Shown here: positions 3,209-31,090 of the stretch, one piece after another
How the letters are laid out: each line of letters starts with the position of its first letter
Numbering within the stretch: the stretch's first letter is position 1
Assembly (NCBI RefSeq): GCF_009708005.2
Contig: NZ_CP052758.1
Span: 1 to 64,000, forward strand
From: Cellulosimicrobium protaetiae
Lineage (GTDB): Bacteria > Actinomycetota > Actinomycetes > Actinomycetales > Cellulomonadaceae
Direction of reading: 5' to 3'
DNA: 64,000 bases
The notes under the pieces: model-generated
Databases searched by the model: none
Told to the model about the DNA's origin: nothing
The model's input: the letters and a program-made list of their open reading frames with translations, nothing else
Made by a program: the position numbers and the translations under genes

Positions 3209-3219
3209 TCTCGACGCTA
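3209..3219 (-). promoter_or_regulatory. Repeated promoter/leader copy 1 (TAGCGTCGAGA)
   Basis: Read on the minus strand, TAGCGT fits an actinobacterial -10 hexamer (TAGxxT). It lies 68 bp before the ATG at 3151, and the leader that follows is similar to those before 5648, 9435 and (plus strand) 30722. A CCCATGCCG motif lies 47 bp upstream at 3266-3274. The TAG is also the stop codon of the VWA gene, so the promoter overlaps the 3' end of that gene. Confidence 0.55.
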
Positions 3220-4548
3220 CGTGGTGGGGGCACTCCGGCCGGGTGTCTCGGTCTGCCTGACGGGCCCCATGCCGCCCGGCCCCGCGACTGGTGCGGGACC
3301 GGGCAGGCGGTCAGACGGGATGTGAACCGTGGTGGCCCAGGTCGGGGTGCCGCGGGGAGGGCGATTGGAGATGACGGCGCACACGAGCCGGGCGCGGGTG
3401 GGCTGGTCGGGCCAGGGGGTGTCGCCGTCGGTGAGGACGACGACGACGTGGGGTGCCGGGGTGGCGGCTTCGGCGGCGGCGATACCGACGCGCATGTCGG
3501 TGCCTCCTCCCCCGGTCAGCCGGACGGCGGTGACGGAGCGCACGCGCTGGGGCGTGGTGGCGGCGGCGTCCACGGACAGCAGGCGCAGGTGTTCGCGGGC
3601 GACGCCCGTGGTGCGCAGGACGCCGGTGACTTCGCTCATGGCGGCGTCGAGGTCGGCCTGGCTCATGGAGCCGGACGTGTCCACGACGAGCGTCACGACG
3701 ACGGACGGGGCGCGCATGGCGGGCTTGATGATGCGGGGAAGTTGGCGGCGTGAGGGGCGGGCGTAGGTGTAGTCGATGCGTCCGGCGCGGTCGGCTACAG
3801 CGCGGCGGACGGCGGCGCGCAGCACGCGTTCCCAGGGCACGGTGGGTGGGGCGAGAACGCCGGATGCCCAGCGGTCCATGCCTGCGGGGACCGAGCCGCG
3901 GCCCTTGGCGGCGATGGTGGCCTGCACGTCTTGGGCGACGCGGCGGCGCACGAGGTCGCTTTCGGCGGGCGAGACGGGGGTGGCGGTGCCGTCGTCGAGC
4001 GCGACGCCTGCGGGCAGCTCGCCCGGTGCGGGTGGGCAGCCGGACCCGGAACCGCACCCGGCCGAGCCGTCGTCGGGCAGTGCGGGCGGGGCGCCGTGCG
4101 GTGGCACCAGGTGGGCGTAGTACGTCTCCGCGAGGTCGCCGTCGTCGCAGCCCAGGGCGCCCGGGGTGACGACGCCTTCGGGCAGCGGGACGCCTGCGGC
4201 GAGCAGGTCGTCGTTGATTTCCGCGTCTCCGGCTAGGTTCCACGCCAGGTGGTGGCGGGGCGTGGGCAGCGCGTCGGCGCGTCCGGCGTGGTCGCGCAGC
4301 AGGTGGCCGACCTCGTGCAGCAGGACGGCGCCGATGGTGGTGGAATCCCAGCGGGCCGGGCCGGTGAGCAGGTCGGGGTCCATGTAGAGGCGCCAGGCGC
4401 CGTCCACGGCGAACGTGCCCAGGCCGGGCGCGGCGACGGGGGCGGCGGCGAACAGCGCGTGCATGAAGTACGGGGCGGTCTCGGCGGCGACGAGGCGTCC
4501 GAGCCGGAACGCTTCGCGCTCGGTGGCGGTCAGGGGGCGGGTGTTCAT
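3217..4548 (-). CDS. Metallopeptidase-like / VWA-like protein (DUF2201 type)
   Basis: The 443-residue product has two recognisable parts. The N-terminal part has a zinc-protease HEVGH motif (His78-His82) followed by NLAGDAEIND, as in the putative metallopeptidase domain found in front of VWA-like domains. The C-terminal part holds a VWA fold with an intact metal-ion site, DTSGS (about 290-294), and a later LTDGDTPW. A Gly/Pro/acidic linker with CGSGSGCPP separates them. Such proteins usually act with a MoxR-type AAA+ ATPase, which is encoded directly upstream with a 4-bp stop-start overlap at 4545-4548. A chaperone- or protease-like role on an unknown target is likely. Confidence 0.85.
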   Translation of the reverse strand: MNTRPLTATEREAFRLGRLVAAETAPYFMHALFAAAPVAAPGLGTFAVDGAWRLYMDPDLLTGPARWDSTTIGAVLLHEVGHLLRDHAGRADALPTPRHHLAWNLAGDAEINDDLLAAGVPLPEGVVTPGALGCDDGDLAETYYAHLVPPHGAPPALPDDGSAGCGSGSGCPPAPGELPAGVALDDGTATPVSPAESDLVRRRVAQDVQATIAAKGRGSVPAGMDRWASGVLAPPTVPWERVLRAAVRRAVADRAGRIDYTYARPSRRQLPRIIKPAMRAPSVVVTLVVDTSGSMSQADLDAAMSEVTGVLRTTGVAREHLRLLSVDAAATTPQRVRSVTAVRLTGGGGTDMRVGIAAAEAATPAPHVVVVLTDGDTPWPDQPTRARLVCAVISNRPPRGTPTWATTVHIPSDRLPGPAPVAGPGGMGPVRQTETPGRSAPTT

Positions 4549-5648
4549 GCCACGGCCTGCCCGGTCAGCCCGGCCGCGTCAAGCACGGGCTTGAACTTCT
4601 CTCGCACGGCGGCGGGCACCTTGGCGGCGGCGGGGCGGCACGCGGCCAGGGGGCGGGCGGCGGCGGCGGCAACGTCGGGCGCGCCTGCCTCGGCGGCGGC
4701 GAGCAGCGGCCCCCACGCCTTGCGCCAGGCGTCCACGCTCCCGGCGCTGGCAGCCCAGCCCACGACGGCGGACAGCACGGCCCACACGCGGTCGGGACGC
4801 CCGGTCCAGTCCACGAGGGTGGGGTCGTCCAGCACGGCGGCGGGGTCAGGCAGGTCGGCCTGGTCGCACCAGACCAGGAACTCCACGCCCACGCCCTCCC
4901 CGACGAGGCCGAAGGTGATCGCCTGGCGCGCGGCGGCGTCGTCGTCGCGGACGTTGGCGAGCGCAGCAGCGAGCATCGCCCACACGCGCCGTGAGGGCCA
5001 GGGTCCGCCCGTGCCCTCGGCGGTGCGCGGGAAGGTGTGCAGGTGCTCGGGCTTGTGCCGGATGAAGCCGGTGACCAACGCCTTGACGGCCTCGGCGCGG
5101 GTCGGGTCGGCGGTGATCGCGCGCGAGGCGGGCGGTGCGGCCCAGCCCACCGTCATACCGTCGAGCCAGTCGTCCACCGACGGGGCGAACTGGACATGGC
5201 AGAAGCGGTTGGCCAGCGGCGGGCTCATCTCCCAGCCGTCGGCCGCACGGTCGGGCGGGTTGGCCCCGGCCACCACGCGCACGCCGTCGGGCAGGGCGAG
5301 GTCCCCCACCACCCGGTCGAGCGCCACGGCGAGCATCGCGGCCTGCACGGCGGGCGGGCACGTGGTCAGTTCGTCCAGGAACAGGTAGCCCGCGCGGGAC
5401 TCGGCCAGCCGTCGCGCCCAGGCGGGCGGAGACAGCACGACCCCGGTGTCGGTGACGACGGGCAGCCCGGCCACGTCGGCCGGTTCGCGCACCGAGCCCA
5501 GGACGGTCTCACAGGGCACGCCCTCGGCGCGGGCGAGGCCGCGCACCAGGGACGACTTGCCCATGCCGGGGTCGGACAACAGCAGGACGGGGACAGCCGC
5601 ACGCCCGCAGGCGTCGATCACAGTCACGGTCGTTGCGAGGTCGCTCAT
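4545..5648 (-). CDS. MoxR-like AAA+ ATPase
   Basis: This 367-residue AAA+ protein has Walker A DPGMGKSS (Lys31), Walker B YLFLDEL (Asp92-Glu93) and a sensor-1-like VVAGANPPD segment followed by NRFCHV, the arrangement of MoxR/RavA-type ATPases. It overlaps the VWA/metallopeptidase gene by four bases (ATGA), and the pair probably forms one machine in which the VWA protein docks on the ATPase ring. The C-terminal half (about residues 180-367) is Ala-rich and helical. It is the first gene of the minus-strand run ending at 505 and is preceded by promoter/leader copy 2. Confidence 0.85.
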   Translation of the reverse strand: MSDLATTVTVIDACGRAAVPVLLLSDPGMGKSSLVRGLARAEGVPCETVLGSVREPADVAGLPVVTDTGVVLSPPAWARRLAESRAGYLFLDELTTCPPAVQAAMLAVALDRVVGDLALPDGVRVVAGANPPDRAADGWEMSPPLANRFCHVQFAPSVDDWLDGMTVGWAAPPASRAITADPTRAEAVKALVTGFIRHKPEHLHTFPRTAEGTGGPWPSRRVWAMLAAALANVRDDDAAARQAITFGLVGEGVGVEFLVWCDQADLPDPAAVLDDPTLVDWTGRPDRVWAVLSAVVGWAASAGSVDAWRKAWGPLLAAAEAGAPDVAAAAARPLAACRPAAAKVPAAVREKFKPVLDAAGLTGQAVA

Positions 5649-5703
5649 CGCCAGGAACTCCGTTCGGGAGACGGCTGGTCGGGCCGTCAGGTGGGTTGGT
5701 AGT

Positions 5704-5714
5704 TCCCGACGCTA
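5704..5714 (-). promoter_or_regulatory. Repeated promoter/leader copy 2 (TAGCGTCGGGA)
   Basis: On the minus strand TAGCGTCGGGA lies 66 bp before the ATG of the MoxR-like gene at 5648. The leader contains the shared GGCCCGACCAGCC stretch, and a CCCATGCCG motif lies 48 bp upstream (5762-5770). Base order and spacing closely match the copies at 3209-3219 and 9492-9502. Confidence 0.6.
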
Positions 5715-5809
5715 GGCCACTTAACCCACGCCCGAGCGCCCCAAACGAACCCCTCTGGCACCCCATGCCGTCCGGCCCGGAGCACTCGCGCTCGTCTTGC
5801 CGGCCCTCT

Positions 5810-7198
5810 CTAGTTCGACTGCTCGGTCTTAAGCCAGCCGCCGCGACGGCGCCTTGCGCCGGCGCGCGCATTCGGCGGAGCAGGATCAGAGATGACACTC
5901 TGCGGCTGGCCCAACGCCGCGTCGGCCCAGCGGTCGTGCACGTCGAAGCTCTCCTCCGTCTTGGTCTCGAGCTCGCCGGACCGGTCGGCCGGGGGCTGAC
6001 CCTGGGGAGACGCGTCCAAGAGACGCGCGCGCAGGTCCCGCATCAAACGACGAGCGGTGAACCAGCCGAGGTCCCACTCGATGTTCCACGGGTCGTTTGA
6101 CGCGGGGCCCAGGTCGACGGTCCCGATGTTGACCAGCTCGTTGCCGCCGCAACACAGCGGCTTCGTGTGACTTCCCCACAGGCGGCGGTGGTCAGAATGT
6201 AGTCGCCCGATCTCGTCGCCGACGAGGTAAACGTCCACGGATCCTGCACCGCCGAGCATCCGGTAGCCCAGAATCGCGACATGGGCCGCTGGGTACACCC
6301 ATCGTGCAATGAGCCAGTCGAGGTCGGGACGCGCGCGGCGGGCGCCACCGTCGCCGGGCCTGTCATCACCAGTGGTGTAGTCGGCGAAGAAGGCACACAC
6401 ACCCCCGTGCCTCCACGCCTGTATGCCGGCGTGTGCCTCGACCGGAGCACGAAGACCACGCCGCAGGTCTCCGTGAATTGCCAAGTAATCACCGCCGAAG
6501 CTGTGCTCCGTGTGGATCCCTTGTCCTTGCCCACGCAGGCTCTTCTCTTCCAGAAGCATCGACATCCGGGCGTGGACCATTGGGTTGTAAATGGTGTCGA
6601 AGACGTCGTCCTGGCGATCGGCGGACCGCGGTGCCACGGCGACGGCGCCGAAGGCCCGCCTGGTGCGGGTGGTCGACAATCGGCGTTCGGCCCACTGGGC
6701 GGTCGCGTAGGCGAAGTGCGGCGCGCGGACGAAGGGGACCGGGGTAGCGAAGGGGTCGCCGTCGTCCGCAGGTGATCGGCTGGGGTGTGCCTTGGCGCGC
6801 GCGAGCATCTGCGTCAGTCGCGGAAGAGCTGTCGCTCCCCGCTTCTCATCTGGCCACAGGTGGTCGGCGGCCGCGGCGAGCGAGCTTAGCTGAGCGAGCG
6901 TCGGCTCCGCGTGGGTGCCCCTCAAGAGTTGCCATACGCGCGTGTGGCTAAGAGTCTCAATACGCCGCGCGGAACTCCTGGGCTCTGCATTCCGTGACGA
7001 CGCAACTTCTCGTGTCTTGGCTGCAGCGGCTTCCACCACTTCTGCGATGGCGGTTTCGATCCGCTTGGAAGACGCTGTCCGGCGTTCCTTGCCAGACGGG
7101 TCGTGCGGATCCGGGCCATCGTCGAACAGCACGTGCAGCTCCTGGACGAGCTCCCGACGATGTGTCGGAGGCAGGTCGCTTTCCGGCGTCGTTGCCAC
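5810..7198 (-). CDS. Unknown 462-aa protein with HTH-like segment
   Basis: The GTG start at 7198 has an excellent ribosome site (GAGGAGG, five bases upstream), although the frame remains open to 7267. Residues about 83-110 (LSHTRVWQLLRG...LAQLSSLA) resemble the helix-turn-helix of XRE-type regulators. The middle holds a hydrophobic stretch around WVYPAAHVAILGYRMLGG and the last 40 residues are very basic. A short CCGG-type Cys pair occurs near residue 355. No catalytic family is recognised. It may be a DNA-binding regulator with a large ligand- or partner-binding part. It is a single gene flanked by gaps of about 160 and 260 bp. Confidence 0.75.
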   Translation of the reverse strand: MATTPESDLPPTHRRELVQELHVLFDDGPDPHDPSGKERRTASSKRIETAIAEVVEAAAAKTREVASSRNAEPRSSARRIETLSHTRVWQLLRGTHAEPTLAQLSSLAAAADHLWPDEKRGATALPRLTQMLARAKAHPSRSPADDGDPFATPVPFVRAPHFAYATAQWAERRLSTTRTRRAFGAVAVAPRSADRQDDVFDTIYNPMVHARMSMLLEEKSLRGQGQGIHTEHSFGGDYLAIHGDLRRGLRAPVEAHAGIQAWRHGGVCAFFADYTTGDDRPGDGGARRARPDLDWLIARWVYPAAHVAILGYRMLGGAGSVDVYLVGDEIGRLHSDHRRLWGSHTKPLCCGGNELVNIGTVDLGPASNDPWNIEWDLGWFTARRLMRDLRARLLDASPQGQPPADRSGELETKTEESFDVHDRWADAALGQPQSVISDPAPPNARAGARRRRGGWLKTEQSN

Positions 7199-7460
7199 AC
7201 TGCCTCCTCGCGTCCGAATGAGCGCCACTGTGGCACTCCGCCGCTGTCGCTGTCCATGCTGCCCCACCGGGCAGGGCTATACGGTCGACGCGACCGCCGG
7301 CACACGAGGGCAAGTCCATCCACGCACGTCCACGAGACGTCCACGAGAATGGCGCTCGTCCACTTTTCATCCCGTTGCTGGACGTCGCCCAGGAGTGGCA
7401 TGGCCCACTTGAAGCGCAACGTCGAAACAGGTCGGCGCTGCGGATCGAGAGGAGCGGGAC

Positions 7461-7691
7461 ATGCGACGTCAGAGGTTGAACCGGCTGCATCCGCGGCACT
7501 GGTCCTGGCACGGCGAACTCGCCGCCCGCTTGGGCCTCGGGGTCGGCGTGAGCATCGCGGTCATGGCGGTGACGCGCGACGCCAGCGTCGCACTTGAGGC
7601 GGGCGGACTTGTCCTGGCCGCGATGCCTCCGTGGCCGCCGCCGCCGCACGGGGCAGCGGCCACGGCGCCGGGAACCGGCTGCGAGCACTGA
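7461..7691 (+). CDS. Small unknown protein, possible single-pass membrane protein
   Basis: The 76-residue frame begins MRRQRLNRLHPRHW after a GAGGAG ribosome site. It has one moderately hydrophobic segment (LGLGVGVSIAVMAV, then LEAGGLVLAAM) and a Pro-rich tail. A perfect 12-bp hairpin starts five bases after the stop, which supports a real transcript. No family is recognised. Confidence 0.5.
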   Translation: MRRQRLNRLHPRHWSWHGELAARLGLGVGVSIAVMAVTRDASVALEAGGLVLAAMPPWPPPPHGAAATAPGTGCEH

Positions 7692-7696
7692 CCGGC

Positions 7697-7726
7697 GGGG
7701 CCGCCGCGGCCGTACGCGGCGGCCCC
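7697..7726. terminator. Strong hairpin between convergent genes
   Basis: GGGGCCGCCGCG pairs perfectly with CGCGGCGGCCCC around a six-base loop. It lies five bases after the small plus-strand gene and 55 bases beyond the end of the convergent CPBP protease gene, so it could stop transcription from both sides. No T-run follows, as is usual in actinobacteria. Confidence 0.65.
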
Positions 7727-7780
7727 ACACCCACCGACAGCCCATGCCGTCCGGCGCGCAGGCTCTGCAGCCACGCGCAG

Positions 7781-8611
7781 CTACCCGATGACCCAGGCGA
7801 GACCGACTCCGGCGTTCATGACGGTGTGCGCCACGAAGGCCGGCCACAGCGACCTGGTCATCACGGCGGCGGTCCCGTAGAGCAGGCCGCTCGTGGTTGC
7901 AGTGACCGCGTTGAGCACTGACCAGTCGAGGTGTGCCAGCCCGAAGTTGACGCTGCTGACGACGAGAGCGCCCACAACGAGCGCACGCCTGATACCGGAC
8001 CGAGGCACCCACCAGGCCACCGCTGCTACGACCAGGAGGAGCGTGCCGCGGTGCCAGACCTCTTCCCACGCTGGGGAGTAGATAGCGAGGTAGAGGACGG
8101 CGGCCCACGACGGCGCACCGGCGACGGCGTCGTTGCGGGCGTCCGGCGCGGCGGTGGCCGCGAGTGCCGGGACGGCGGTGAGCGCAAGGTTGGCGGCGAA
8201 CGCCAGAAGGCCGGCCGCGAGCCCGACGGCGAGGATGTGCACGGCGTGGCGGCGGTTCCGTGGCGTGAGCCCGAGGTGATCGGCGAAGAGTCCGATCCAG
8301 ACTCGGGTGCGTCGCCACGCGCGGGCGAAGTCGCCCCTGACGGAGGTGTGCCGGCGCAGTGTCACCAGCTCGATCACGACGAGCACCGCGACGAGGGCAA
8401 GTGCCACTGTCAGGGCGATGACCAGCAGCCCGCGGACGTCTTCGAACGGAACGATGCCGGGAAGGGTGTTCGCGACGGTGATGCTCGTCGCGGCCGCGAG
8501 CAGGAACAGCGCGATGAAGAGCACGAGCTCAGCGAAGGCGGCTTGGCCGAACGTGCTGATGCGTCGCCATGTCGCGTTCGGCCGGCGGAGGTCTGTGCTG
8601 ATGGTGGTCAT
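7781..8611 (-). CDS. CPBP-family intramembrane metalloprotease
   Basis: This 276-residue, six-to-eight-helix membrane protein carries the CPBP/CAAX-protease signature: EEVWHR (Glu183-Glu184, Arg188), FGLAH (His227) and HTVMN (His262, Asn266). These residues form the glutamate/histidine metal site inside the membrane. Bacterial members process peptides such as bacteriocins or act in immunity; the substrate here is unknown. The ATG at 8611 is chosen because AGGGGG lies just upstream; an in-frame ATG at 8629 is the alternative. The gene stands alone and converges on the small gene at 7461. Confidence 0.8.
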   Translation of the reverse strand: MTTISTDLRRPNATWRRISTFGQAAFAELVLFIALFLLAAATSITVANTLPGIVPFEDVRGLLVIALTVALALVAVLVVIELVTLRRHTSVRGDFARAWRRTRVWIGLFADHLGLTPRNRRHAVHILAVGLAAGLLAFAANLALTAVPALAATAAPDARNDAVAGAPSWAAVLYLAIYSPAWEEVWHRGTLLLVVAAVAWWVPRSGIRRALVVGALVVSSVNFGLAHLDWSVLNAVTATTSGLLYGTAAVMTRSLWPAFVAHTVMNAGVGLAWVIG

Positions 8612-8689
8612 GGTGCCCCCTGAAGTCATGCGCGGGATCGTCTCGCGCCCCACCCACACGCCGGTGAGGGTGGGGCAAGAGGTGTTCCG

Positions 8690-9178: not shown

Positions 9179-9435
9179 GCGGAGCGCTCGATGACGACGG
9201 CGTTGTCCTGGCCGAGCGAGGCCGTCAGGCGGCGGCACTCGCACGTGAGCGCGCCCAGGCCGGCCCGCTCCCAGCCGATGACATCGTCGGCCGCGACGGG
9301 GCGCAGCCGTGCGCCACTTGTCGTGGCGCCGATGTGCTGCGCGGTGATACCTGCACAGGCCGCCTCTCCGCAGACCCAGCGGTCGTGCGAGAGGTAGATC
9401 TGGTCGGGGTCGAGCACGGGCGTGGGGTGCGTCAT
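9175..9435 (-). CDS. Small 86-aa unknown protein
   Basis: The frame starts MTHPTPVLDPDQIYLSHDRW after a strong GGAGGAG ribosome site and contains VCGEAACAGI and LTCECRRL cysteine groups. It is the first gene of a two-gene unit with the 162-aa protein and lies 67 bp after a TAGCGTCGGGA promoter box (copy 3). Function is unknown; the cysteines may bind a metal. Confidence 0.7.
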   Translation of the reverse strand: MTHPTPVLDPDQIYLSHDRWVCGEAACAGITAQHIGATTSGARLRPVAADDVIGWERAGLGALTCECRRLTASLGQDNAVVIERSA

Positions 9436-9491
9436 GGCTCCTCCAGCGGGAGTCCGGGGCCGGTGGTCAGCCGGCCGAGGTGGTTTGGCGC

Positions 9492-9502
9492 TCCCGACGC
9501 TA
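9492..9502 (-). promoter_or_regulatory. Repeated promoter/leader copy 3 (TAGCGTCGGGA)
   Basis: TAGCGTCGGGA on the minus strand lies 67 bp before the ATG at 9435, with CCCATGCCG 49 bp upstream (9551-9559) inside a perfect inverted repeat, CCTGCGCCAG/CTGGCGCAGG. Sequence and spacing match copies 1 and 2. Confidence 0.6.
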
Positions 9503-9685
9503 CCCAAGCCCGCCCACGCTGGGCGGCCGTTCTCTCCCTGCGCCAGGGACCCCATGCCGCCCGCCCCCGCGTCGAGCTGGCGCAGGCGTGTCGGTCACAC
9601 CGCACTTCTCACTGCGCGGGTGTGTCTCTGAGTGTTGGGCGGGTCTCGGGTCCGAAGTCGGGAGGTCGTGCCTGACAGTAGAGGC

Positions 9686-17620: not shown

Positions 17621-17935
17621 TCAGCCTCGGGCGTCGTACGCCTCGAGGACCGCGGCCGGGATCTTCCCGCGGTCGCTCACATCGTGCCCATTGGCGCGGG
17701 CCCACGCCCGAACCTCAGCCCCGTCCGTGCGCGTCCTGGTCGTCGCGCTGGCGGATGCGCGCCCGACCCGGCGCGCGGCCTTGATGTACGGCGCGAGCGC
17801 CGCGAGCAGCTCGTCGCGGTGCTCGTCGCTCAGGTCGATCTCGTACCGCCCCTGCTGCCAGGAGAACGCGTACGTGCGCGCGCCCTCCGAGCCGTCGAGG
17901 TCGTCGGTGATGATCACGTGCCGCTGCTGAACCAT
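17621..17935 (-). CDS. lsr2: Lsr2 family nucleoid-associated protein
   Basis: The 104-residue product shows the Lsr2 layout: an N-terminal dimerisation part (VIITDDLDGSEGARTYAFSW), a flexible linker, and a C-terminal DNA-binding part (VRAWARANGHDVSDRGKIPAAVLEAY). Lsr2 bridges AT-rich DNA and silences horizontally acquired genes. The usual RGR minor-groove hook reads RGK here, a conservative change. It is adjacent to the ligase gene within a foreign-looking region, which suits a xenogeneic silencer carried by or near an element. Confidence 0.9.
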   Translation of the reverse strand: MVQQRHVIITDDLDGSEGARTYAFSWQQGRYEIDLSDEHRDELLAALAPYIKAARRVGRASASATTRTRTDGAEVRAWARANGHDVSDRGKIPAAVLEAYDARG

Positions 17936-18080
17936 GGCGCACATCGTGCCAGCAGCTCGATGGGGCGGTACACAGCAGCGTTGATCGGGGGTGAAGTGTC
18001 GCAGTGGCCCTGGGCCAGGGAGCGCAGGTCATCCACACTTCTCGGAGCACGCAATGCACCGGGCGTCGAGGAGGACACGA

Positions 18081-19043
18081 ATGGACTTGAGGCGCCGGGT
18101 AACGATCGCATTCTTGGCTGGAGGGGTCCTCGCGTGGCACTTGGCAAAGCGAGCGACACGCCCGGGGTCTAGTGGCCCAGCGTCCGCCCAGTCACCGCTG
18201 ACCGAGCCCCCACTCGTCGAGGATCCTGCGCTGCCAGAGCCCGACGCGGCGTCCAGCGCGCCTGCGCCGCGTGCGCGGTCCACGGGAGAGATAGCGGCGC
18301 TGGGCGCTGGGGTCCTCGGGCTTTCAACCTGGATGGGCATCCTGATCGATCAATTGCTCTTGGTCCCAGTGATTGGCCCCGCGGCGCTCGTCCTTGTAGT
18401 GGCTGTCGGCTGGCTTGTGCCGGCAGTTTATTGTGTCGTCGCGGTCCGGCGGTACAAACGGCCGAGTCGCTTACGCCGCACTCTGCCAGCTCTCGCCATC
18501 CCGGGCATTCTCATTATGCTGCACATCCTCGCGTTCTCGGTGCCCACATTCACCGAGCGAATTGACCTCTGGCTATGGCCCTGGTTCGTGGCAATTTTCG
18601 CATGGTCCGCGTTCTACCATCTTTACAAACAGCACTCCGTCGCATCTGGTGCATGGCTCTGCATACTCGACGTCGCCGGGTCATTCGCGGCCACACGGGA
18701 CGTGTGGCCGATTGCGGCGGGCTACGCGAAGATGCTTGTCGACTCACCAGCCCCCTGGGATCAGCTCGCGCCATTCGCCTTCGTATTGCTCGCGATCCTC
18801 GCAACTGTCCTACTGACATCTGATATTGGAGTCGAGCAATCCCCTCTCGGCCGGACCGGCGCCTTTCTCGCAGGATTGGCCATTACCTTGTTCATATTGT
18901 TCTCAAATCAAGAGAGCTGGGAGAGCGTTGGAGTGTGGCGATCGATCATCGTTGGGATCATTGGCGTTGTCGGGACCCTGATGTTCATCGGGGCACGAAC
19001 GATTCACCTCTCAGGCGACAAGAACGTCACGAAGGACTCGTGA
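18081..19043 (+). CDS. Unknown multi-pass membrane protein
   Basis: The ATG at 18081 follows GAGGAGG by six bases, a strong site. The 320-residue product has a signal-anchor-like start, a Ser/Pro/Ala-rich linker to about residue 75, then seven or so hydrophobic helices. No family signature is seen. Its base composition is visibly less GC-rich than its neighbours, which suggests recent arrival. It is a single gene between minus-strand genes. Confidence 0.7.
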   Translation: MDLRRRVTIAFLAGGVLAWHLAKRATRPGSSGPASAQSPLTEPPLVEDPALPEPDAASSAPAPRARSTGEIAALGAGVLGLSTWMGILIDQLLLVPVIGPAALVLVVAVGWLVPAVYCVVAVRRYKRPSRLRRTLPALAIPGILIMLHILAFSVPTFTERIDLWLWPWFVAIFAWSAFYHLYKQHSVASGAWLCILDVAGSFAATRDVWPIAAGYAKMLVDSPAPWDQLAPFAFVLLAILATVLLTSDIGVEQSPLGRTGAFLAGLAITLFILFSNQESWESVGVWRSIIVGIIGVVGTLMFIGARTIHLSGDKNVTKDS

Positions 19044-23930: not shown

Positions 23931-23979
23931 CCCCCATCCCGCGGCTGCTCCGTGCCACCCGGCCCTCGATCGCGGGGAC

Positions 23980-24567
23980 TCACTCTGCGGCCGCAGCGTC
24001 CTTGATCGCCCGGTCGAGCTCGGCGTAGGCGGTCGGCCCACCGGTCTGCTCGCTCACCCACGCCAGCGACATCGCCGCGCCCGCACGATCCACGACCACC
24101 TGGCGCGGCAGGACGTAGAACTCCCACTGCGCCACGTCGAGGACGTCGTACGCGGCGTGCTCGCGCGCGGTGTGAACGCACAGCACGTACACGTCGGCGT
24201 TCCACCCCTGCTGGCCGCGGTACTCGCCCGTGGCGTGGTCCCACGAGTCCGCGGCCTTGATCTGGAACGAGCCGAGGCGGACCTGCTTCTGGGCCCACGA
24301 CTGCAGGTAGCCGCGGACCTTCACCTCCACCCGCACGCCGTCCGGCGTCAGGACGTCGTACGCGTCCCACTCGACCCTGTGACCGCTCGCGCCGACCGCA
24401 CGCGCGACCAAGAACTCCGCCAGGTAACCGCGCACGTTGTTCATCCGCAGGTCGTTCATCGCGAAGCGCCAGAAGTCGAGCACGCTCGCGTCCACGCCCA
24501 CGAACCGCTCGGAGCCGTCCAGCTCGACCGGGCTCGGCACCACCGTCTTCTCGTCCACGACCACCAT
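23980..24567 (-). CDS. Unknown protein with PD-(D/E)XK-like motif
   Basis: From MVVVDEKTVVPSP the 195-residue product has NVRGYLAEFLVARAVG, then YDVLTPDGVRVEVKVRGYLQSW, giving a helix Glu, an Asp and Glu-x-Lys in the order of restriction-type nucleases, followed by a Gln-rich segment (QKQVRLGSFQI). It converges on the Mrr-like gene, with 49 bp between them. The ATG at 24567 lacks a strong ribosome site; GTG starts upstream are possible. The function is inferred from motif only. Confidence 0.68.
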   Translation of the reverse strand: MVVVDEKTVVPSPVELDGSERFVGVDASVLDFWRFAMNDLRMNNVRGYLAEFLVARAVGASGHRVEWDAYDVLTPDGVRVEVKVRGYLQSWAQKQVRLGSFQIKAADSWDHATGEYRGQQGWNADVYVLCVHTAREHAAYDVLDVAQWEFYVLPRQVVVDRAGAAMSLAWVSEQTGGPTAYAELDRAIKDAAAAE

Positions 24568-25087: not shown

Positions 25088-25316
25088 TCTAGCTGCGCCG
25101 CCCCCCGGCAGGACGGGCCGCTGTGCGCCCGATGCGGCCACTGCTACTGCTTCCCGTGCCGGACGAAGCGCCTCACGCGCGCCGCGCGCGGCTCGTGGCT
25201 CGCACCTCCCGACGGCGGCTACCACGGGTGCGCGCCCGCTGGACCGAAGCGACCGCTACCGCCCCCCAACCCCCACCGACCACCCCTGCAACACCCCACA
25301 CGAACGGAGCACCCAG

Positions 25317-25814: not shown

Positions 25815-26575
25815 CCGCCCCGACGACCCCGGTCCCGTGGGACGAGGCCCGGCTCGCCGCGCACGAGGAGACGCTGCGCGGCTGGCTCGAGGAGGGCGTT
25901 CCGGGGCCGTGGGCAGACGCGCTTGAGTGCGCGGCCGCCCTGCGTTCTGCGAAGGGGACCGTTGACGGAAGGCTCGACCAGCTCAGGGTTGCCCGCCCGG
26001 AAGGGCCCCACGAGGACGAGGAGTACGCAGAGCGGCTGCGCGCCGCGTGGGCCGCGCTGGACGGCCCTGCGAGTATCTACCTCGAGTTCAAGAGCGGCCG
26101 CAGGTCGCGCGGCTACCCGTGGTTCGGGGTGTCCGATGGCAACCCCGCGACACTCGATATCGGCCCGGAGCAGTACGCCCGCGAACACCAGGACGTCGCG
26201 CTGAGCAGCAACATCGTCTCGTGCCTCATCTTGCCGGACCCCGTCGTGCTCCCGCCGGGGCACGGTCTCATCGCGGAGATCTCCACTCAGCACCTCGAGT
26301 GGCGCAAGGCGTGGCGCGTCCTCAACGCCCTGTACGAGGCCGTGCCTGCCGGGTCGTGGGTCACCATCTACGGGAGCGCGAGCGGCCCGTCGCGCGGGCC
26401 CTGGCTCGGCCCGGGGACGTTCGGGCAAGCGGGCGAGCCGGGCATCCGGTTCAACCCTCTGCCGGGCCGTCGTGACGGCAAGGTCTCGGTCGTGACGCTC
26501 GCGCTGCGCGAGATCCGGCACCTCCTGGTCACGATGCCCCCGCCCGACGAGCGTCCGGCCTCGCAGCCCGTCTGA
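25811..26575 (+). CDS. Unknown 254-aa protein
   Basis: Its GTG overlaps the stop of the DUF6221-like gene. The product begins VTAPTTPVPWDEARLAAHEETL, has an acidic helical N-third, then a beta-rich central part (ASIYLEFKSGRRSRGYPWFGV) and ends with LREIRHLLVTMPPP. It is soluble and shows no known motif. Confidence 0.65.
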   Translation: MTAPTTPVPWDEARLAAHEETLRGWLEEGVPGPWADALECAAALRSAKGTVDGRLDQLRVARPEGPHEDEEYAERLRAAWAALDGPASIYLEFKSGRRSRGYPWFGVSDGNPATLDIGPEQYAREHQDVALSSNIVSCLILPDPVVLPPGHGLIAEISTQHLEWRKAWRVLNALYEAVPAGSWVTIYGSASGPSRGPWLGPGTFGQAGEPGIRFNPLPGRRDGKVSVVTLALREIRHLLVTMPPPDERPASQPV

Positions 26576-26776
26576 CCGGGTGCTGACCCACGCCCGGCCA
26601 CCGCCCACCAGCGGTGCGCCGGGCGTCGCCGTCCACAAGCACGACCGCAACGGAGGATTCAGCCTCGCCGGGCTGCCTCACTGGACGAGCACCAACCCGC
26701 ACGACCCCTGGCGCAAAGCGACCGCGCCCCGACCCACGGCAGACCCGTAGATCGGGGCGGAGCCCGTTGAGCGCGC

Positions 26777-27103
26777 TCACGTTCCGGCTGTGAATCGCTG
26801 CCCGGTCGACCAGGACGGGTAGGTACCGAGTGCCTTCGTCGTCGGGCGGTCGTGCGCGGGCAGCGGGTAGCACCATGCGCAGGTGTGCGGGTGTTCGACG
26901 ACGTCGTGCTCGTGGGCTTCCTGGTCCCCGATCGAGATCCCGGCCTGGCACGCGTGAAGGCCGGCGCGGTGGTCCTCGGCGCAGCCCGGGCACCAGCCGA
27001 CGCAGGTAGGCCAGTCGTGCAGGTCGCATCGGGCGTGCCAGCGCGGCATCCGCGGCGGCAGCTGGAGCCCGGTGGGTCGGGCGGATGCTGCTGCCTCGCT
27101 CAT
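26777..27103 (-). CDS. Cys/His-rich small protein, probable zinc binder
   Basis: The 108-residue protein starts MSEAAASARPTGLQLPP and has CDLHDWPTCVGWCPGCAEDH, HACQAG and HPHTCAWCYPLPAHD, giving seven cysteines and many histidines that could hold two zinc ions. Its ATG overlaps the stop of the upstream 214-aa gene (27100-27103). No family is recognised. The 200 bp downstream (26576-26776) hold no gene. Confidence 0.65.
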   Translation of the reverse strand: MSEAAASARPTGLQLPPRMPRWHARCDLHDWPTCVGWCPGCAEDHRAGLHACQAGISIGDQEAHEHDVVEHPHTCAWCYPLPAHDRPTTKALGTYPSWSTGQRFTAGT

Positions 27104-27744
27104 CGGCTGCGGACCGTGACGGGGCGGGCGCCCGGGTTCGCGACGACGAGGTCTCCGTCCGTCGTGAGCGCCAGACTGTAGTGGCCGTCGGCATCGCGCT
27201 CCTCGACGAAGTCCTCGCCCCCGCCCTTGAGCCCTGTGCGCACCGTGACGTCGCGGCCGCGAGGGCCGACGACGAGGAGTTCGCCGCTGGCCGTGACCGA
27301 GATCTCGTACACCCCGGCCATCTCGGTGCGGTGCACGATCTCGTCGCCCGCCGGTTCCAGGAGTTCGGTCAGCTCGGTGATCTCCTCCCCCAGCCCGACG
27401 TGCTGCACGGGCCATCCCTGCCCGCGAACCCAGGCGTACGGCTTGGCCAGGCGGCGCCCGATGAGATCGTCGGCGCCTTCCATCTCGCGAGTCAGGAACC
27501 GGACGCGGCCGTCCTCGGGGTCGACGGCGTGCCCGGTGATGCTGCGGACCTCGACGACGACGTTCTTGCGGACCGCGAGCAGGACGTCAGCGTGTGCGAG
27601 GAGCTCGGCCGCGGCGGGCGAGGTGTCGAAGTCGGCGCCGAACTTCACGTGGCGGACGGGCCAGGAGCGCTCCACGGACTCGAGCTTCTCGGCGCTGCTG
27701 CCGTTGATGGGGTATGTCTGGGTGACGTTGACGAGGATCGGCAC
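27100..27744 (-). CDS. Unknown 214-aa protein
   Basis: Two adjacent GTG codons follow GGAGG; the second (27744, five-base spacing) is used. The product starts VPILVNVTQTYPING and is beta-rich and acidic, with a C-terminal repeat-like part (GVYEISVTASGELLVVGPRGRDVTVRTG then GHYSLALTTDGDLVVANPGARPVTVRSR). These two near-equal blocks suggest an internal duplication of a small beta domain. It is coupled to the zinc-binder gene downstream. Confidence 0.65.
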   Translation of the reverse strand: MPILVNVTQTYPINGSSAEKLESVERSWPVRHVKFGADFDTSPAAAELLAHADVLLAVRKNVVVEVRSITGHAVDPEDGRVRFLTREMEGADDLIGRRLAKPYAWVRGQGWPVQHVGLGEEITELTELLEPAGDEIVHRTEMAGVYEISVTASGELLVVGPRGRDVTVRTGLKGGGEDFVEERDADGHYSLALTTDGDLVVANPGARPVTVRSR

Positions 27745-27863
27745 CACTACCTCCAGGTGTACTTGACGCGCGATGTTGACTCCCAGCGTCTCACACATCG
27801 CGCGCGATGTACACGCCCCCGAGAGAACCTCCGCCCGTCAGCGTGTACCCCTACGATCAGGGC

Positions 27864-28034
27864 GTGCTCGTCCGTGCCACCATCCAGCAGATCCCGCCCG
27901 ACAACGCCCGCACCTACGACCTCGAAACCCGCGACGTCGTCATCGACGACGCCGCCTCGTACGAAGAGGGCAAGGCCCGGATCGCCCCCGAGGTGCCCGA
28001 GGGGTGGCGGGTCATCGGCTACTCGACCTGGTAG
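27864..28034 (+). CDS. Small 56-aa unknown protein
   Basis: From a GTG at 27864 the frame reads VLVRATIQQIPPDNARTYDLETRDVVIDD and ends EGWRVIGYSTW, a compact alpha/beta pattern like small phage proteins. The frame is open to 27807 upstream. The ribosome site is weak. No family is recognised. Confidence 0.5.
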   Translation: MLVRATIQQIPPDNARTYDLETRDVVIDDAASYEEGKARIAPEVPEGWRVIGYSTW

Positions 28035-28083
28035 CTCACGGCTCACGTGGTCGCACCCTGCGACCGGTGGCAGCATCGCAGGC

Positions 28084-28557
28084 ATGAGCCGAGCCGAGGA
28101 TGGACGCTCCGCCCGCGCACACGTCGTCGCCGCGACGTTGGGCGCGCTGGCCCTGACGATCCTCGGAGGGTGCGGCGCCAACGAGGCGCCGGCCGCGCAG
28201 TCGCCGTCGGACCCCGCCTGCACGCAGGCCAGCGGGGAGCAGGTCGACCAGATCACCGCGACGTTCATCGCGCCGGTCGACGTCGTCGCCGCCTACTCGG
28301 TGACCTCCACGGAGCACGACGACCTCGTCTTCGTCACGGTGGGCACCGACGGCTTCCCCGACGAGGTCTCCCACAAGAGCGGCGAGTTCGCCGGCCCGAC
28401 GTACGCGTACTCGGCCGGCGAGCTGCTCGCCGCGAGCGGGCAGGCCTCGCGCTACTCCCCCGACCTCCCGAGCCTGAGCGACAGCGGAGACCGCTCCGTC
28501 GTCTACGACGACGCCGCGAGCGACTCGTTCAACTGCGTCCGCGACGCACTCGGCTGA
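28084..28557 (+). CDS. Small secreted lipoprotein, unknown role
   Basis: The 157-residue product has a lipoprotein signal peptide: charged start, hydrophobic AATLGALALTILGGC with lipobox Cys at about residue 31, then an Ala/Pro/Ser spacer. The mature domain is acidic and has two further cysteines (CTQ and NCV) that could form a disulfide. It should be attached to the outer face of the membrane. No known family is recognised. Confidence 0.7.
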   Translation: MSRAEDGRSARAHVVAATLGALALTILGGCGANEAPAAQSPSDPACTQASGEQVDQITATFIAPVDVVAAYSVTSTEHDDLVFVTVGTDGFPDEVSHKSGEFAGPTYAYSAGELLAASGQASRYSPDLPSLSDSGDRSVVYDDAASDSFNCVRDALG

Positions 28558-28639
28558 GACGTCGCGGTTGACGACGGCGGGCCACCCAGAGCCGTCTGAG
28601 CCGGGCGCACCCGTCCCAGTGCTGTCCGCTCGAGTCCGC

Positions 28640-29374
28640 CTAGAGGTGGCGCAGCCACCGGCGGAGCAGCGCGCGTACCACGAGCGCTCCCACGCCGACC
28701 GCCAGCGGGCCAACCGCCTCGTGCAACTCGGCGTCAGGACCACTCGGCACGAGGGCCTGGCACGAGATCCCGACCGCGAAGACCAGCCCGACGATGCCGA
28801 CGACCAGGAGCGCCTTGACCAGCCAGCCGGCGAACCCGCCCCACGCCTCCACGACCTCACCCCACGCCTCGGCGGGCGTCTGCTCAGCCGCGCGGGCTCG
28901 CGCTTCGCCGAACGTCGCACGGGCGGACGCGCCGGCGCCTGGGGTCGCGCGAGCGGTCATGCTCGTGCGAGCCCTACGGGGTGCGGCCCGCCGCGGTGCG
29001 GCGCACTCGAGCTCGCGGGCGTGGCCGTTGGCCGCGGTGACCTCCCCGCGCACGGAGTAGGTGAACAGCGCGATCGCCATCTCCTCGGCGTACGCGGCGG
29101 CCGGCGGGGAGTACCCGCTGGCGGAGAAGAACGCGAGGGCGAGGTGGTGCTGGGCGCCGCGGGCGCCGACGAGCCGCTGGAGCAGCGGGCGCCCCACCAC
29201 GGCGGTGAGCTGCTTGACCTCGGCCAGGATCCGGCTGGACCGGACATCGACGCCACCGTCGGCACTCGCGGGCGTCAGCTGCGCGTCGTCGAACCCGAGC
29301 TCGCGCAGGTGCCAGACCGCGCACTCCTCGGCCTCACGCGGGGTCGTGATGTGCTCGCCCGGCCTCCATGTCAC
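28640..29374 (-). CDS. Membrane-anchored Mrr-like nuclease
   Basis: The first 120 of 244 residues form a Mrr-type nuclease domain: REAEECAVWHLRELGF, GGVDV (Asp43), ILAEVKQL (Glu52-x-Lys54) and LLQRLVGA. Two hydrophobic helices follow near the C-terminus (WLVKALLVVGIVGLVFAVGI and VGPLAVGVGALVVRALL), so the nuclease is tethered to the inner face of the membrane. This Mrr_cat plus TM design is known for DNA-uptake-linked or membrane defence nucleases. It is paralogous to the gene at 22689. GTG start at 29374. Confidence 0.78.
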   Translation of the reverse strand: MTWRPGEHITTPREAEECAVWHLRELGFDDAQLTPASADGGVDVRSSRILAEVKQLTAVVGRPLLQRLVGARGAQHHLALAFFSASGYSPPAAAYAEEMAIALFTYSVRGEVTAANGHARELECAAPRRAAPRRARTSMTARATPGAGASARATFGEARARAAEQTPAEAWGEVVEAWGGFAGWLVKALLVVGIVGLVFAVGISCQALVPSGPDAELHEAVGPLAVGVGALVVRALLRRWLRHL

Positions 29375-29480
29375 GCCCGAAGGCTACAAGCCCGACGGCC
29401 CAGGGAACCCCAGGACGTCGGCGGCTGCCCCCTCCTCACGCCACGACATGCTCGCCGGCCAACTACCCGTAGACCTGGCG

Positions 29481-30191
29481 CTAGCCGACCAGGCGCAGCG
29501 GCCCGCGCCGCATCGAGACGGCCAGCCGCGCCTGCCCCTCGACCGGGTCGGCCAGAAGGCCGCCTGGCATCGGCAGCGTGAGCGTCCACCGGTCCGTGAT
29601 GCCGCGGGCCGTGCGGGCGACGTCGAGCTCGCACCGTCGGAGGTAGCCCGCGCCGGCGCCAGTGCCGGACCACCGATGCCCGACGACGTCGAGGCGCACC
29701 GCGGCATGCTCCCACGCGCTGACAGCGACCAGCCCGGAACCGCGCTCGCGCGCCCGGGCGAGCAGCCGTCGGCGCTCGGACGCCGTGAGCCGGGCGTCCG
29801 GCCCGACGACGACGTACGTCATGCCGTCGAGCAGCGCCGCGACGACCCCGGCGGGATCGTCCCCGGCGCGCGGCACGAGCGCGACGCGCTCGAGCGCCAC
29901 GCCGGCGTCGGCGGCCGCGAGCATCCCGAGGTCGGGCGCCCCCACCGCGGCGAGCCAGTCCGAGGTGCCCTGCGACGTCGCGAGCAACGCGAGCAGGAGC
30001 GACGTCGAGCCCGTCACGACGCTGGCCGCACCACGCGGCAGACGCCCGTCGTCGAGTATCGCGCCGAGCGGGCGCGAGCCGTCGTCGAGGTCTACGACAC
30101 CCGGCGTCGACGCGCGCACGCCCGTGCGCAGCTCGGCGCGACGCAGGGTCGCGCGAGCCACCTCGAGCGGGTCCAGCGCGGTCGTCGGCAC
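29481..30191 (-). CDS. ImuA'-like protein with degenerate RecA-type P-loop
   Basis: The 236-residue protein has the shape of actinobacterial ImuA' proteins: a RecA-like N-part with GSTSLLLALLA (58-71), then VALVPRAGDDPAGVVAALLDG, VVVGPDARLTASERRRLLARARERGS and an Arg-rich end. ImuA' works with ImuB and DnaE2 in error-prone lesion bypass. The P-loop Lys is missing (GSTS in place of GKT/S), as in other ImuA' proteins that do not bind ATP. No imuB or dnaE2 follows; a Mrr-like gene does. A perfect LexA box stands 22 bp before the ATG. Confidence 0.68.
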   Translation of the reverse strand: MPTTALDPLEVARATLRRAELRTGVRASTPGVVDLDDGSRPLGAILDDGRLPRGAASVVTGSTSLLLALLATSQGTSDWLAAVGAPDLGMLAAADAGVALERVALVPRAGDDPAGVVAALLDGMTYVVVGPDARLTASERRRLLARARERGSGLVAVSAWEHAAVRLDVVGHRWSGTGAGAGYLRRCELDVARTARGITDRWTLTLPMPGGLLADPVEGQARLAVSMRRGPLRLVG

Positions 30192-30212
30192 CCTTCCAGG
30201 CTACGCCGTGGT

Positions 30213-30228
30213 TCGAACTGGTGTTCGA
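30213..30228. promoter_or_regulatory. LexA (SOS) box TCGAACTGGTGTTCGA
   Basis: TCGAAC-N4-GTTCGA is a perfect palindrome and matches the actinobacterial LexA consensus (Mycobacterium type). It sits between the ImuA'-like gene (ATG at 30191) and the divergent small gene (GTG at 30242), so LexA could repress both, with release after DNA damage. Confidence 0.85.
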
Positions 30229-30241
30229 ATACGATTGTGTC

Positions 30242-30535
30242 GTGGGTACTCGTCGACGTCCGCCTCCGGGCGGCTGGCCGTCCGGCATCGAGACGGTGCC
30301 GCTGCGTGACCATGCCGAGGAAGCGCCCGAGCTCGCGCGCCGCGGCGTGGCGATCGTGCGCCCGCCCGAGGGCATCCCGGTGCGCGCGTGGATCACGCAG
30401 CGCCAGAGCGGCGAGGCCCGCGTCGACGGCGAGGCGGTCGCGTGGGCCGGCCGCCAGGTCCACATCCGCTACATCTCGCGCGAGGGGCGCGAGGGCTGGG
30501 CCTGGCTCTGGGCCGATGCCGTCGAGCGCCGCTGA
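30242..30535 (+). CDS. Small SOS-controlled protein, unknown
   Basis: From GTG at 30242 the 97-residue product reads VGTRRRPPPGGWPSGIETVPL and ends with a beta-rich stretch (VHIRYISREGREGWAWLWADAVERR), a pattern like small SH3-type domains. Its start lies 14 bp from the LexA box, which suggests DNA-damage control. A GTG at 30221 inside the LexA box is also in frame. It is followed by a 12-bp perfect hairpin. Confidence 0.65.
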   Translation: MGTRRRPPPGGWPSGIETVPLRDHAEEAPELARRGVAIVRPPEGIPVRAWITQRQSGEARVDGEAVAWAGRQVHIRYISREGREGWAWLWADAVERR

Positions 30536-30591
30536 CACGCGGCTTGATCGTTGCCCGGGCGGGTCACCATCGAGAGGCCGGCAACCCATGG

Positions 30592-30623
30592 CCGGGTCGG
30601 GCGCCCCATGCCGCCCGACCCGG
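30592..30623. terminator. Hairpin with CCCCATGC loop
   Basis: CCGGGTCGGGCG pairs perfectly with CGCCCGACCCGG around the loop CCCCATGC. It lies 57 bp after the stop of the small SOS gene and 35 bp before a TAGCGT box. The loop is the repeated CCCATGCCG element found five other times in the first 31 kb. It may end the upstream transcript and also mark the next promoter. Confidence 0.6.
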
Positions 30624-30657
30624 CGGTCGGTGCGGTCCGAGCGTGGGTGGTGGGCGG

Positions 30658-30663
30658 TAGCGT
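30658..30663 (+). promoter_or_regulatory. Repeated promoter/leader copy 4 (TAGCGT)
   Basis: TAGCGTTGG lies 64 bp before the ATG at 30722 and its leader (TACCAGCAC, GGACTGACCA, then TGGAGG) aligns with the three minus-strand copies. CCCATGCCG lies 45 bp upstream. Confidence 0.55.
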
Positions 30664-30721
30664 TGGCGGTACCAGCACATCGGCGGACTGACCATCTGCC
30701 CAGATATCCCGTGGAGGGATC

Positions 30722-31090
30722 ATGTCGAACACGTCGTTTCGCGCCGTCACGATCAGCGCTGAGTCCGAGCCTGCAGAGGTCATCTGGGACGCCTCGGGCG
30801 GCCTCCTGAGTCACCTTCAGAGCGCGGTCGGGGGGTTCGTGGACGTGGTCCGGCTCGGCCCGAACCTCGACATGTGGGTCAACGACGACGGCTTCGCGCT
30901 CGAGCTGCCGCGCAACGTCGCGGCGACGGGCATCGCGTGGCACTACGGCTTCCGCCACCAGATCTACGTGGGCCCGGCGGTCTTCACGGGTGGAGTGGAC
31001 GAGGAGGGCGAGAGCCTGCCGCTCGCTCCCGTCTCGGCGGCTGCCCTGGTCGAGATGGCGGGCAAGGTCTTGCAGGGCATCGCGCTCTAG
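30722..31090 (+). CDS. DUF3846-like protein
   Basis: The 122-residue product begins MSNTSFRAVTISAESEPAEV and has VDVVRLGPNLDMWVNDDGF followed by an Asn/Ala/Thr segment, the pattern of the DUF3846 family, small proteins common on actinobacterial elements and phages. A GGAGGG ribosome site precedes the ATG. Function is unknown. It is driven by promoter/leader copy 4. Confidence 0.75.
   Translation: MSNTSFRAVTISAESEPAEVIWDASGGLLSHLQSAVGGFVDVVRLGPNLDMWVNDDGFALELPRNVAATGIAWHYGFRHQIYVGPAVFTGGVDEEGESLPLAPVSAAALVEMAGKVLQGIAL

Follow-up and report, generated by a model that had tools for sequence, protein, structure and literature searches.

What kind of control element stands before unrelated genes of an actinobacterial plasmid, and at which level does it act? 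The question is raised by the first 64,000 bases (the window, numbered as in the contig) of C2, a plasmid-like contig of 152,586 bp that together with a chromosome of 4,631,595 bp forms the genome of Cellulosimicrobium protaetiae. The original prediction, made from the sequence alone, described here a promoter-hairpin-leader unit repeated four times. The four copies exist, but they are only part of a larger set: nine full units (upstream DNA box, -10-like hexamer and leader hairpin) and two hairpins without the box were found on C2, and twelve full units and one hairpin without the box on pXCEL01 (88,604 bp) of Xylanimonas cellulosilytica DSM 15894, with which C2 is largely syntenic. The copies have a common anatomy and spacing, their hairpin stems covary, hairpins occur without a box or an intact -10, the set is confined to the element in this genome and the loop is conserved in Rhodococcus MoxR leaders. 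On the basis of these results, we consider it probable, with some reserve, that the unit is a two-layer, plasmid-specific control cassette defining a regulon of accessory plasmid genes. The unit itself is real, plasmid-wide and apparently selected, its RNA hairpin is the newer and better-supported half, and the mechanism proposed below, which we infer, is the best-supported one.

The DNA layer has a nearly fixed geometry. In the window, as had been predicted, the ATGs at 3151, 5648, 9435 and 30722 are preceded by TAGCGT-type -10 sequences beginning 68, 66, 67 and 64 bp upstream, and each of these sequences has a CCCATGCCG/CGGCATGGG motif on its 5' side at a near-constant distance. The predicted distances of 47, 48, 49 and 45 bp were revised to 45, 46, 47 and 45 bp when measured for the 9-mer core GGCATGGGG, and the form TAGCGTYGG holds for three copies, the one at 3219 reading TAGCGTCGA with one mismatch. 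Since CCCATGCCG is on the plus strand in all four copies, the core as seen from the gene is GGCATGGGG in the first three copies and CCCCATGCC in the fourth. Across the 23 full units, the core is exact in 21, and its gap to the -10 is 46 bp in 10 units, 45 bp in six, 47 bp in four, 44 bp in one and 35 bp in two, the two outliers being one helical turn shorter. A 16-bp stretch between box and -10 (-36 to -20) has a mean identity of only 33%, while the length of the interval is kept; the -10 is mostly TARCGTCG (mean identity of the octamer 83%). GTGGGTG stands exactly 15 bp before the -10 in 7 of the 23 and within two mismatches in six more, and no clear -35 consensus was seen at the units. The box points in the direction of the gene in 15 full units and in the opposite direction in eight; its orientation is equal on C2 and pXCEL01 for the four orthologous pairs compared (MoxR, the 59-amino-acid gene, DUF3846 and the 148283-type gene). 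As the original prediction held, the fixed spacing implies a common factor, and the same spacing in either orientation suggests a DNA-bound activator. Such a factor could bind the box on one face of the helix and contact RNA polymerase; the predicted activator thus fits the spacing, while its activating role is presumed. In addition, a lone box was observed on pXCEL01 at 65964, between convergent genes.

The RNA layer begins downstream of the -10, from which transcription presumably starts. The order is -10, ACCAACC, a stem of 5-6 bp around the loop YGACCA, a Shine-Dalgarno sequence and the start codon; the first stem base lies 20-27 nt after the first base of the -10, and two copies have A for G in the loop. 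The hairpin that the copies have in common is located in the leader, but at the upstream box a stem of at least 8 bp is present in only 5 of the 23 full units. Leader stems differ between copies in a compensated manner. Cells with two-sided changes numbered 10 versus 3.0 in shuffled alignments for 10 rows of C2 (including the later-dropped C2:140033), 13 versus 3.1 for 25 leaders and 29 versus 8.2 for 24 distinct hairpins, which were collapsed from 34, eight of these from Rhodococcus, with two badly registered C2 hairpins kept. The covariation score of the 24 was 0.525 versus 0.142 when shuffled, none of 500 shuffles reached the observed cell counts, covariation score or percentage paired, and sliding the pairing partner removed most of the signal. 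Hairpins with the unit loop number 11 each on C2 and pXCEL01, versus means of 1.0 and 0.8 for 29 permuted loops (maxima 4 and 2), an excess of about ten-fold on both plasmids.

Hairpins were also found right before start codons without a box or an intact TANNNT, at C2:147350, C2:150797 and pXCEL01:6826. The co-directional genes on either side are 57, 134 and 57 bp apart, and the degenerate hexamers AAGCGT, TACGGC and CACCCT stand where the -10 would be. These sites appear to be units that have lost box and promoter but retained the hairpin. Orthologous genes differ in this respect in both directions: C2:150292 has a full unit where pXCEL01:6813 has the hairpin only, and C2:150852 has the hairpin only where pXCEL01:2996 has a full unit. 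The covarying stem, the near-fixed loop and the hairpins that stand without box or intact -10 suggest that what is chiefly conserved is RNA, which the original prediction had missed. No Rfam family matched at its gathering score in the whole window, and a permissive scan of 1-32000 gave three sub-threshold matches, none at a unit leader.

Further evidence comes from plasmids of relatives. At 1e-30, homologs of the copy 2 MoxR protein were found in 59 plasmid records, of which 33 are Rhodococcus, and the leaders of the MoxR homologs on pXCEL01, in genome G009 and on Rhodococcus plasmids contain a hairpin whose loop is identical or almost so. Seven of eight Rhodococcus leaders read have a hairpin of 5-7 bp (five distinct) with the loop CTGACCA, or CTCACCA in one record (L297), and stems unlike those of C2 and pXCEL01. 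Leaders of the Rhodococcus opacus type keep the loop with a different -10-like TATAAT. The eighth record, R. oxybenzonivorans, has a match to the R. opacus leader ∼3.6 kb away from the start of the gene, and in R. fascians another hairpin of this kind precedes an unannotated ATG. A type IV-B plasmid of Mycolicibacterium vanbaalenii (L291) has its own repeated promoter and hairpin leader at seven genes, with the two-part stem GGGC-A-CGCC/GGCG-G-GCCC, a one-by-one internal mismatch and then an AAGGGG-like Shine-Dalgarno sequence; the M. adipatum MoxR leader shares it. Its two-sided cells (eight rows) numbered 7 versus 2.1, reached by none of 500 shuffles, and on the two stricter measures 4 of 500 shuffles reached the two-sided pairs and 214 of 500 the pair types. 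Another repeated leader, TTAGTGTGTGGGTTAGTTCCGGTGAGACACACGGTCTG, was noticed, by eye only, on a Gordonia type IV-B plasmid (L292). Plasmids of this group may thus have the repeated promoter-plus-hairpin leader as a general architecture, each lineage with its own sequence.

Is the unit confined to the element? A leader covariance model trained on nine C2 and 10 pXCEL01 copies, which match by construction, gave 11 matches on C2 (E 5.6e-14 to 0.008, the twelfth at 0.30) and none better than E 0.14 on the host chromosome (4.63 Mb), where no unit was detected. Its out-of-sample matches were C2:150797, C2:147350, pXCEL01:6826, pXCEL01:88132 and one each in G009 and G122, all of which were included in a second model. 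A composite pattern of -10, loop and ATG, written from the known copies, matched 11 times in the genome, eight of them on C2, and its reversed control twice. Both scans uphold the prediction of a duplicated control unit before unrelated genes that is confined to the element in this genome, and the scatter over the chromosome that would have counted against it was not seen with the composite unit, whose matches concentrate on C2. For each box alone this does not hold. TAGCGTYGG was rejected as a marker by itself (25 genome matches, 21 of them chromosomal; reversed control 21), and CGGCATGGGG is at control level genome-wide (28 versus 28; 19 on the chromosome, nine on C2), although on C2 nine were observed versus 0.8 expected and eight of the nine belong to units. 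The ninth exact CGGCATGGGG on C2, in the window at 31153-31162, has no unit and overlaps a possible start codon at 31157. A further hairpin, C2:140033, first spotted by eye, scored 7.5 bits and was left out of later counts; the matching place on pXCEL01 shows no such hairpin.

Across the family, the model scan detected units in four of the 221 genomes: G000, G034 (which contains pXCEL01), G009 and G122. G009 has one unit, at its MoxR gene, and G122 has one beside fragments resembling csf1 and cysH, both on chromosome-sized contigs. A fifth family match, in G031 (L262), reads as coding sequence and was set aside as chance. In 396 order-level and 394 class-level genomes the scan gave no convincing further unit; one order-level match (L084, E 2.4e-4) has TAGCGT, AACCAC and a GGACCA hairpin, which is within chance given the 396 genomes searched, and L085 was likewise judged chance. 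BLAST with one pXCEL01 unit (E up to 10) matched 79 plasmid and 61 phage records; among the matches listed (40 plasmid, 20 phage), only pXCEL01 itself reached 80% query coverage, and in the records of four weak plasmid matches the leader model found nothing better than E 0.05. Pattern scans of viral contigs gave 21, 5 and 1 stretches, the other unit features being absent from those inspected and the best model score among the 21 being 26 bits. A degenerate-pattern scan of genome contigs gave at least 120 stretches, mostly hairpin-only matches among the 80 listed, with a best score of 27.1 bits (L117). Two hairpins are placed as a leader would be, that of L117 upstream of an apparent ribosomal protein gene and that of L221 upstream of an ATG in viral sequence; neither box nor -10 was seen on inspection of either, and we treat both as probably due to chance. 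The hairpin of L117 (2636-2666, Propionicicella superfundia) reads GGCGG-TCCGACCAG-CCGCC, ∼26 nt before an apparent ribosomal protein L11 start, possibly by chance.

We propose that the cassette would work in two layers. The first would be a primary-sigma-type promoter (TARCGTCG as -10, often GTGGGTG, no clear -35) activated by a DNA-binding factor at the site GGGCGGCATGGGG; at 44-47 bp (or 35 bp, one turn less) upstream, and whichever way it points, this site would stay on the same face of the helix. In the second, the transcribed ACCAACC and YGACCA hairpin would be recognized by a sequence-specific trans factor that sets the translation or the stability of the mRNA of each gene. The leader would presumably act at this level, and both factors are presumed to be plasmid-encoded. 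If this is right, the plasmid has a private post-transcriptional regulon in which a single RNA signal stands before about a dozen genes, is maintained by selection acting on its structure and can be separated from the promoter box, and the factor that reads YGACCA would offer a tractable handle for actinobacterial megaplasmid biology.

Several observations weigh against this proposal. C2 and pXCEL01 represent one plasmid family, so unit copies are not independent. On stricter measures, the two-sided-change pairs were reached by 18, 12 and 26 of 500 shuffles and the pair types by 150, 158 and 72 (10, 25 and 24 rows, respectively). The C2 hairpins at 148227 and 151984 pair poorly in the common register, pXCEL01:6869 forms four of six pairs, and the innermost pair fails in 12 of the 24 distinct hairpins. 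In 10 of the 23 full units GTGGGTG is missing, its position showing more than two mismatches, and none of six mycobacterial MoxR leaders read has the loop. Two box-less hairpins reached only E 0.008 and 0.0014 in the first model, whose E-values are approximate and err on the optimistic side (at 0.05, 75 of 200 genomes gave a match), and the box-less hairpins may be decayed units with some promoter left. A host factor or a structural role of the unit is also possible.

Among other explanations of the same pattern, one is that only DNA matters: an element-encoded sigma factor would recognize the copies of a duplicated promoter, and the likeness of the leaders would be a by-product of duplication. 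The conserved -10 octamer and a sigma-70-like gene common to both plasmids agree with it, but the stems remain paired although they vary from copy to copy, hairpins are found where box and intact -10 are missing and the R. opacus-type leaders keep the loop with another -10. Moreover, TANNNT is compatible with the host primary sigma factor, and relatives of the sigma-like gene occur in genomes without units; we regard this explanation as unlikely. Little better placed, and still rather unlikely in our opinion, is an assembly of generic parts without any dedicated factor, in which the box would terminate or insulate the previous gene and the hairpin would passively stabilize or space the mRNA. 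In its favor, our reading of the annotation places 11 of the 12 unit boxes on pXCEL01 behind a gene of the same direction, the lone box lies between convergent genes, and four C2 boxes sit within inverted repeats of 11-17 bp. However, the terminator reading fails as a general explanation, with TTTT within 35 nt at 1 of the 23 boxes and the few long stems given above, so that the combination of GC-rich stem and U-run typical of intrinsic terminators is not a general feature of the boxes; a terminator needs neither a fixed distance to the next -10 nor an alternative of one turn, and a passive stabilizer needs no invariant loop.

Two further explanations fare worse. If units were homologous or site-specific recombination sites for the gain and loss of single-gene cassettes, the unit-led C2 genes at 9435, 146935, 147415, 148970 and 152049, which have no match on pXCEL01, and the single units in two other genomes would be expected. 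Yet much unit-free C2 cargo also lacks a match, the proximity to start codons, the spacing phase and the hairpins kept without a box are left unexplained, and the most conserved bases sit in the transcribed loop, which makes this very unlikely. Hardly credible to us is a single-stranded-DNA promoter of the Frpo kind, expressing entry genes of a leading region from the incoming T-strand. The kinds of gene present (ArdC-like, methylase, DUF3846) and the recurrence of hairpins next to promoters do resemble leading regions as described in PMC11541004. Against it, the -10 stands outside the hairpin, a clear -35 is lacking and some hairpins have no intact -10; unit genes also lie on both strands of C2 and pXCEL01, which may weigh against it, depending on the position of the origin of transfer (oriT). 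An antisense RNA to the leader was also considered and rejected: GTGGTTGGTC has nine matches, all chromosomal, versus 10 for the control, and a complement-like cluster near C2:126178 has no counterpart in the pXCEL01 listing. That cluster (C2:126178-126240) consists of TGGTC/TGGTTGGTC repeats in a gap beside a ParA-like gene; these are possibly partition or replication repeats, with a complementarity to the leader that is perhaps due to chance.

Which gene products could serve the two-layer cassette? The element-encoded sigma factor suggested by the original prediction is not supported as the common factor, because relatives of the sigma-70-like gene common to C2 and pXCEL01 (TIGR02937, E 1.6e-4, below the cut-off) occur without units. 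At E 1e-20 they were found in 22 of 221 family genomes, three with units and 19 without; G122 has a unit and is not among the 22, and no unit was found in the stretches around the relatives in G100, G116, G072, G138 and G009. The two clearer sigma factors of pXCEL01 have no C2 counterpart in the comparison of both plasmids. A protein with a WhiB domain is common to C2 and pXCEL01 and is our candidate for the factor of the first layer; as a query, it matched no plasmid record other than pXCEL01 at 1e-6.

Both plasmids also share a type IV-B CRISPR operon (csf1, cas11, csf2, csf3 and a cysH-like gene), which on C2 lies ∼1.4 kb from the nearest unit of an array, as on pXCEL01. At 1e-15, csf2 occurs in exactly two of 221 family genomes, the two with multicopy units; this coincidence is weak evidence because C2 and pXCEL01 are one plasmid family. 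G009 has a unit and lacks csf2, and csf2 relatives occur on 64 plasmid records, 45 of them Rhodococcus. A possible link between the operon and the units is suggested. The RNA partner and the function of type IV-B complexes are described as unknown in PMC8175902 and PMC7937560. It is conceivable, as a long shot, that the leader hairpins are natural RNA partners of the plasmid's type IV-B ribonucleoprotein (or CasCysH enzyme), which would regulate the plasmid's own mRNAs at YGACCA rather than serve immunity. Each lineage would then have its own hairpin code: YGACCA here and in Rhodococcus, GGGC-A-CGCC in Mycolicibacterium and the GAGACACACGGTCT leader in Gordonia. As unit-led genes adjoin the operon, the leaders offer concrete candidate RNAs for type IV-B tests.

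Among known systems, CsrA-type leader regulons have a trans factor that reads a short hairpin-loop motif, GGA, of many leaders. The unit would resemble them by analogy in its short loop motif in many leaders, whereas this motif is YGACCA and does not overlap the Shine-Dalgarno sequence. Actinobacterial promoters activated by Wbl/WhiB proteins have a TANNNT -10 without a good -35, and known Wbl proteins act at the -35 position. The units share this promoter type and co-occur with a WhiB gene on both plasmids, but their box, 44-47 bp away from the -10, is nowhere near that position. As described in Pope et al. 2011 (PMC3203893) and PMC12699233, the start-associated sequences and their extended form (SAS/ESAS) of cluster K mycobacteriophages are multi-copy and located at start codons of a subset of non-structural genes. 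They are similar in being start-associated, with an additional inverted repeat in part, of unknown function and on actinobacterial mobile elements. They differ in having a fixed 13-mer and imperfectly conserved 17-bp arms, in contrast with the compensated variable stem, fixed loop and DNA box at helical spacing of the unit. The SAS 13-mer GGGATAGGAGCCC (up to two mismatches) is in none of the 23 units and occurs five times on C2 and once on pXCEL01, versus 4.5 and 1.9 in dinucleotide-matched random sequence; the unit stems, 5-6 bp and varying with compensation, do not form the 17-bp consensus inverted repeats of ESAS. PMC11541004 describes Frpo/ssi as repeated promoter-hairpin units before anti-restriction-type plasmid genes, in which folded single-stranded DNA mimics a double-stranded promoter. 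The unit hairpin lies downstream of the -10 and would be transcribed, and no -10 hexamer was found inside the folded stem. In a literature search whose coverage left out most subscription papers, we found no published description of the unit, of pXCEL01 or of a plasmid-encoded sigma factor in actinobacteria.

The positions of the four copies in the window and of related features are given in the table.

Positions of unit parts, unit-led genes and related features on C2 and on plasmids of relatives
Element	Feature	Position	Strand	Remarks
C2, window	Copy 1, DNA box GGCATGGGG	3265..3273	-	gene's orientation, 45 bp 5' of -10
C2, window	Copy 1, -10-like TAGCGT	3214..3219	-	
C2, window	Copy 1, leader hairpin	3178..3196	-	5-bp stem, loop CCAACCA
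C2, window	Copy 1, open reading frame, 59 amino acids	2972..3151	-	no Pfam/PHROG family at cut-offs used; pXCEL01 ortholog
C2, window	Copy 2, DNA box GGCATGGGG	5761..5769	-	46 bp 5' of -10
C2, window	Copy 2, -10-like TAGCGT	5709..5714	-	GTGGGTT 15 bp before
C2, window	Copy 2, leader hairpin	5670..5688	-	GACGGC-CCGACCA-GCCGTC
C2, window	Copy 2, MoxR-type AAA ATPase	4545..5648	-	
C2, window	Copy 3, DNA box GGCATGGGG	9550..9558	-	47 bp 5' of -10
C2, window	Copy 3, -10-like TAGCGT	9497..9502	-	
C2, window	Copy 3, leader hairpin	9458..9476	-	GGCCGG-CTGACCA-CCGGCC
C2, window	Copy 3, open reading frame, 86 amino acids	9175..9435	-	no Pfam/PHROG family at cut-offs used
C2, window	Copy 4, DNA box	30604..30612	-	opposite to gene (CCCCATGCC on +), 45 bp 5' of -10
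C2, window	Copy 4, -10-like TAGCGT	30658..30663	+	GTGGGTG 15 bp before
C2, window	Copy 4, leader hairpin	30682..30700	+	GGCGGA-CTGACCA-TCTGCC
C2, window	Copy 4, DUF3846 protein	30722..31090	+	pXCEL01 ortholog also unit-led, same box orientation
C2	Full units	3219-, 5714-, 9502-, 30658+, 146876+, 148227+, 148908+, 150224+, 151984+		
C2	Type IV-B genes csf1, cas11, csf2, csf3, cysH-like	141764-145508		L043/L044; outside the window
M. vanbaalenii plasmid (L291)	Starts of leader-bearing genes	4784-, 5685-, 6867-, 7318-, 12618-, 13148-, 15508-		
Gordonia plasmid (L292)	Repeated leader	before 25449, 28896, 30260		related at 24233, 26750, 30924

The box of copy 4 sits within a 13-bp inverted repeat. 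Unit-led genes on C2 encode the MoxR ATPase, the DUF3846 protein, several proteins without a family at the cut-offs used and one with PHROG matches to a RusA-like resolvase (12598) and a polymerase processivity factor (947). On pXCEL01, a unit stands directly before an ArdC-like gene, and an N-6 methylase gene comes second, behind a unit-led gene. Judging from these families, the unit-led genes would appear to have accessory or establishment functions of the plasmid. It was also observed that the VWA gene of the MoxR cluster (window 3217-4548) apparently extends ∼33 amino acids beyond the part aligned to its pXCEL01 ortholog, and that this apparent extension runs through the box of copy 1 into its -10.

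Apart from the units, C2 and pXCEL01 have in common a Tad pilus, a transfer ATPase and FtsK in addition to the CRISPR genes, and C2 carries a large cargo without counterpart on pXCEL01. Finally, C2:133925-134512 (L043) and its pXCEL01 ortholog (17693-18286) gave a below-cut-off match to the telomere-protecting terminal protein Tpg (NF047541, E 4e-8); despite this sub-threshold match, pXCEL01 is recorded as circular.

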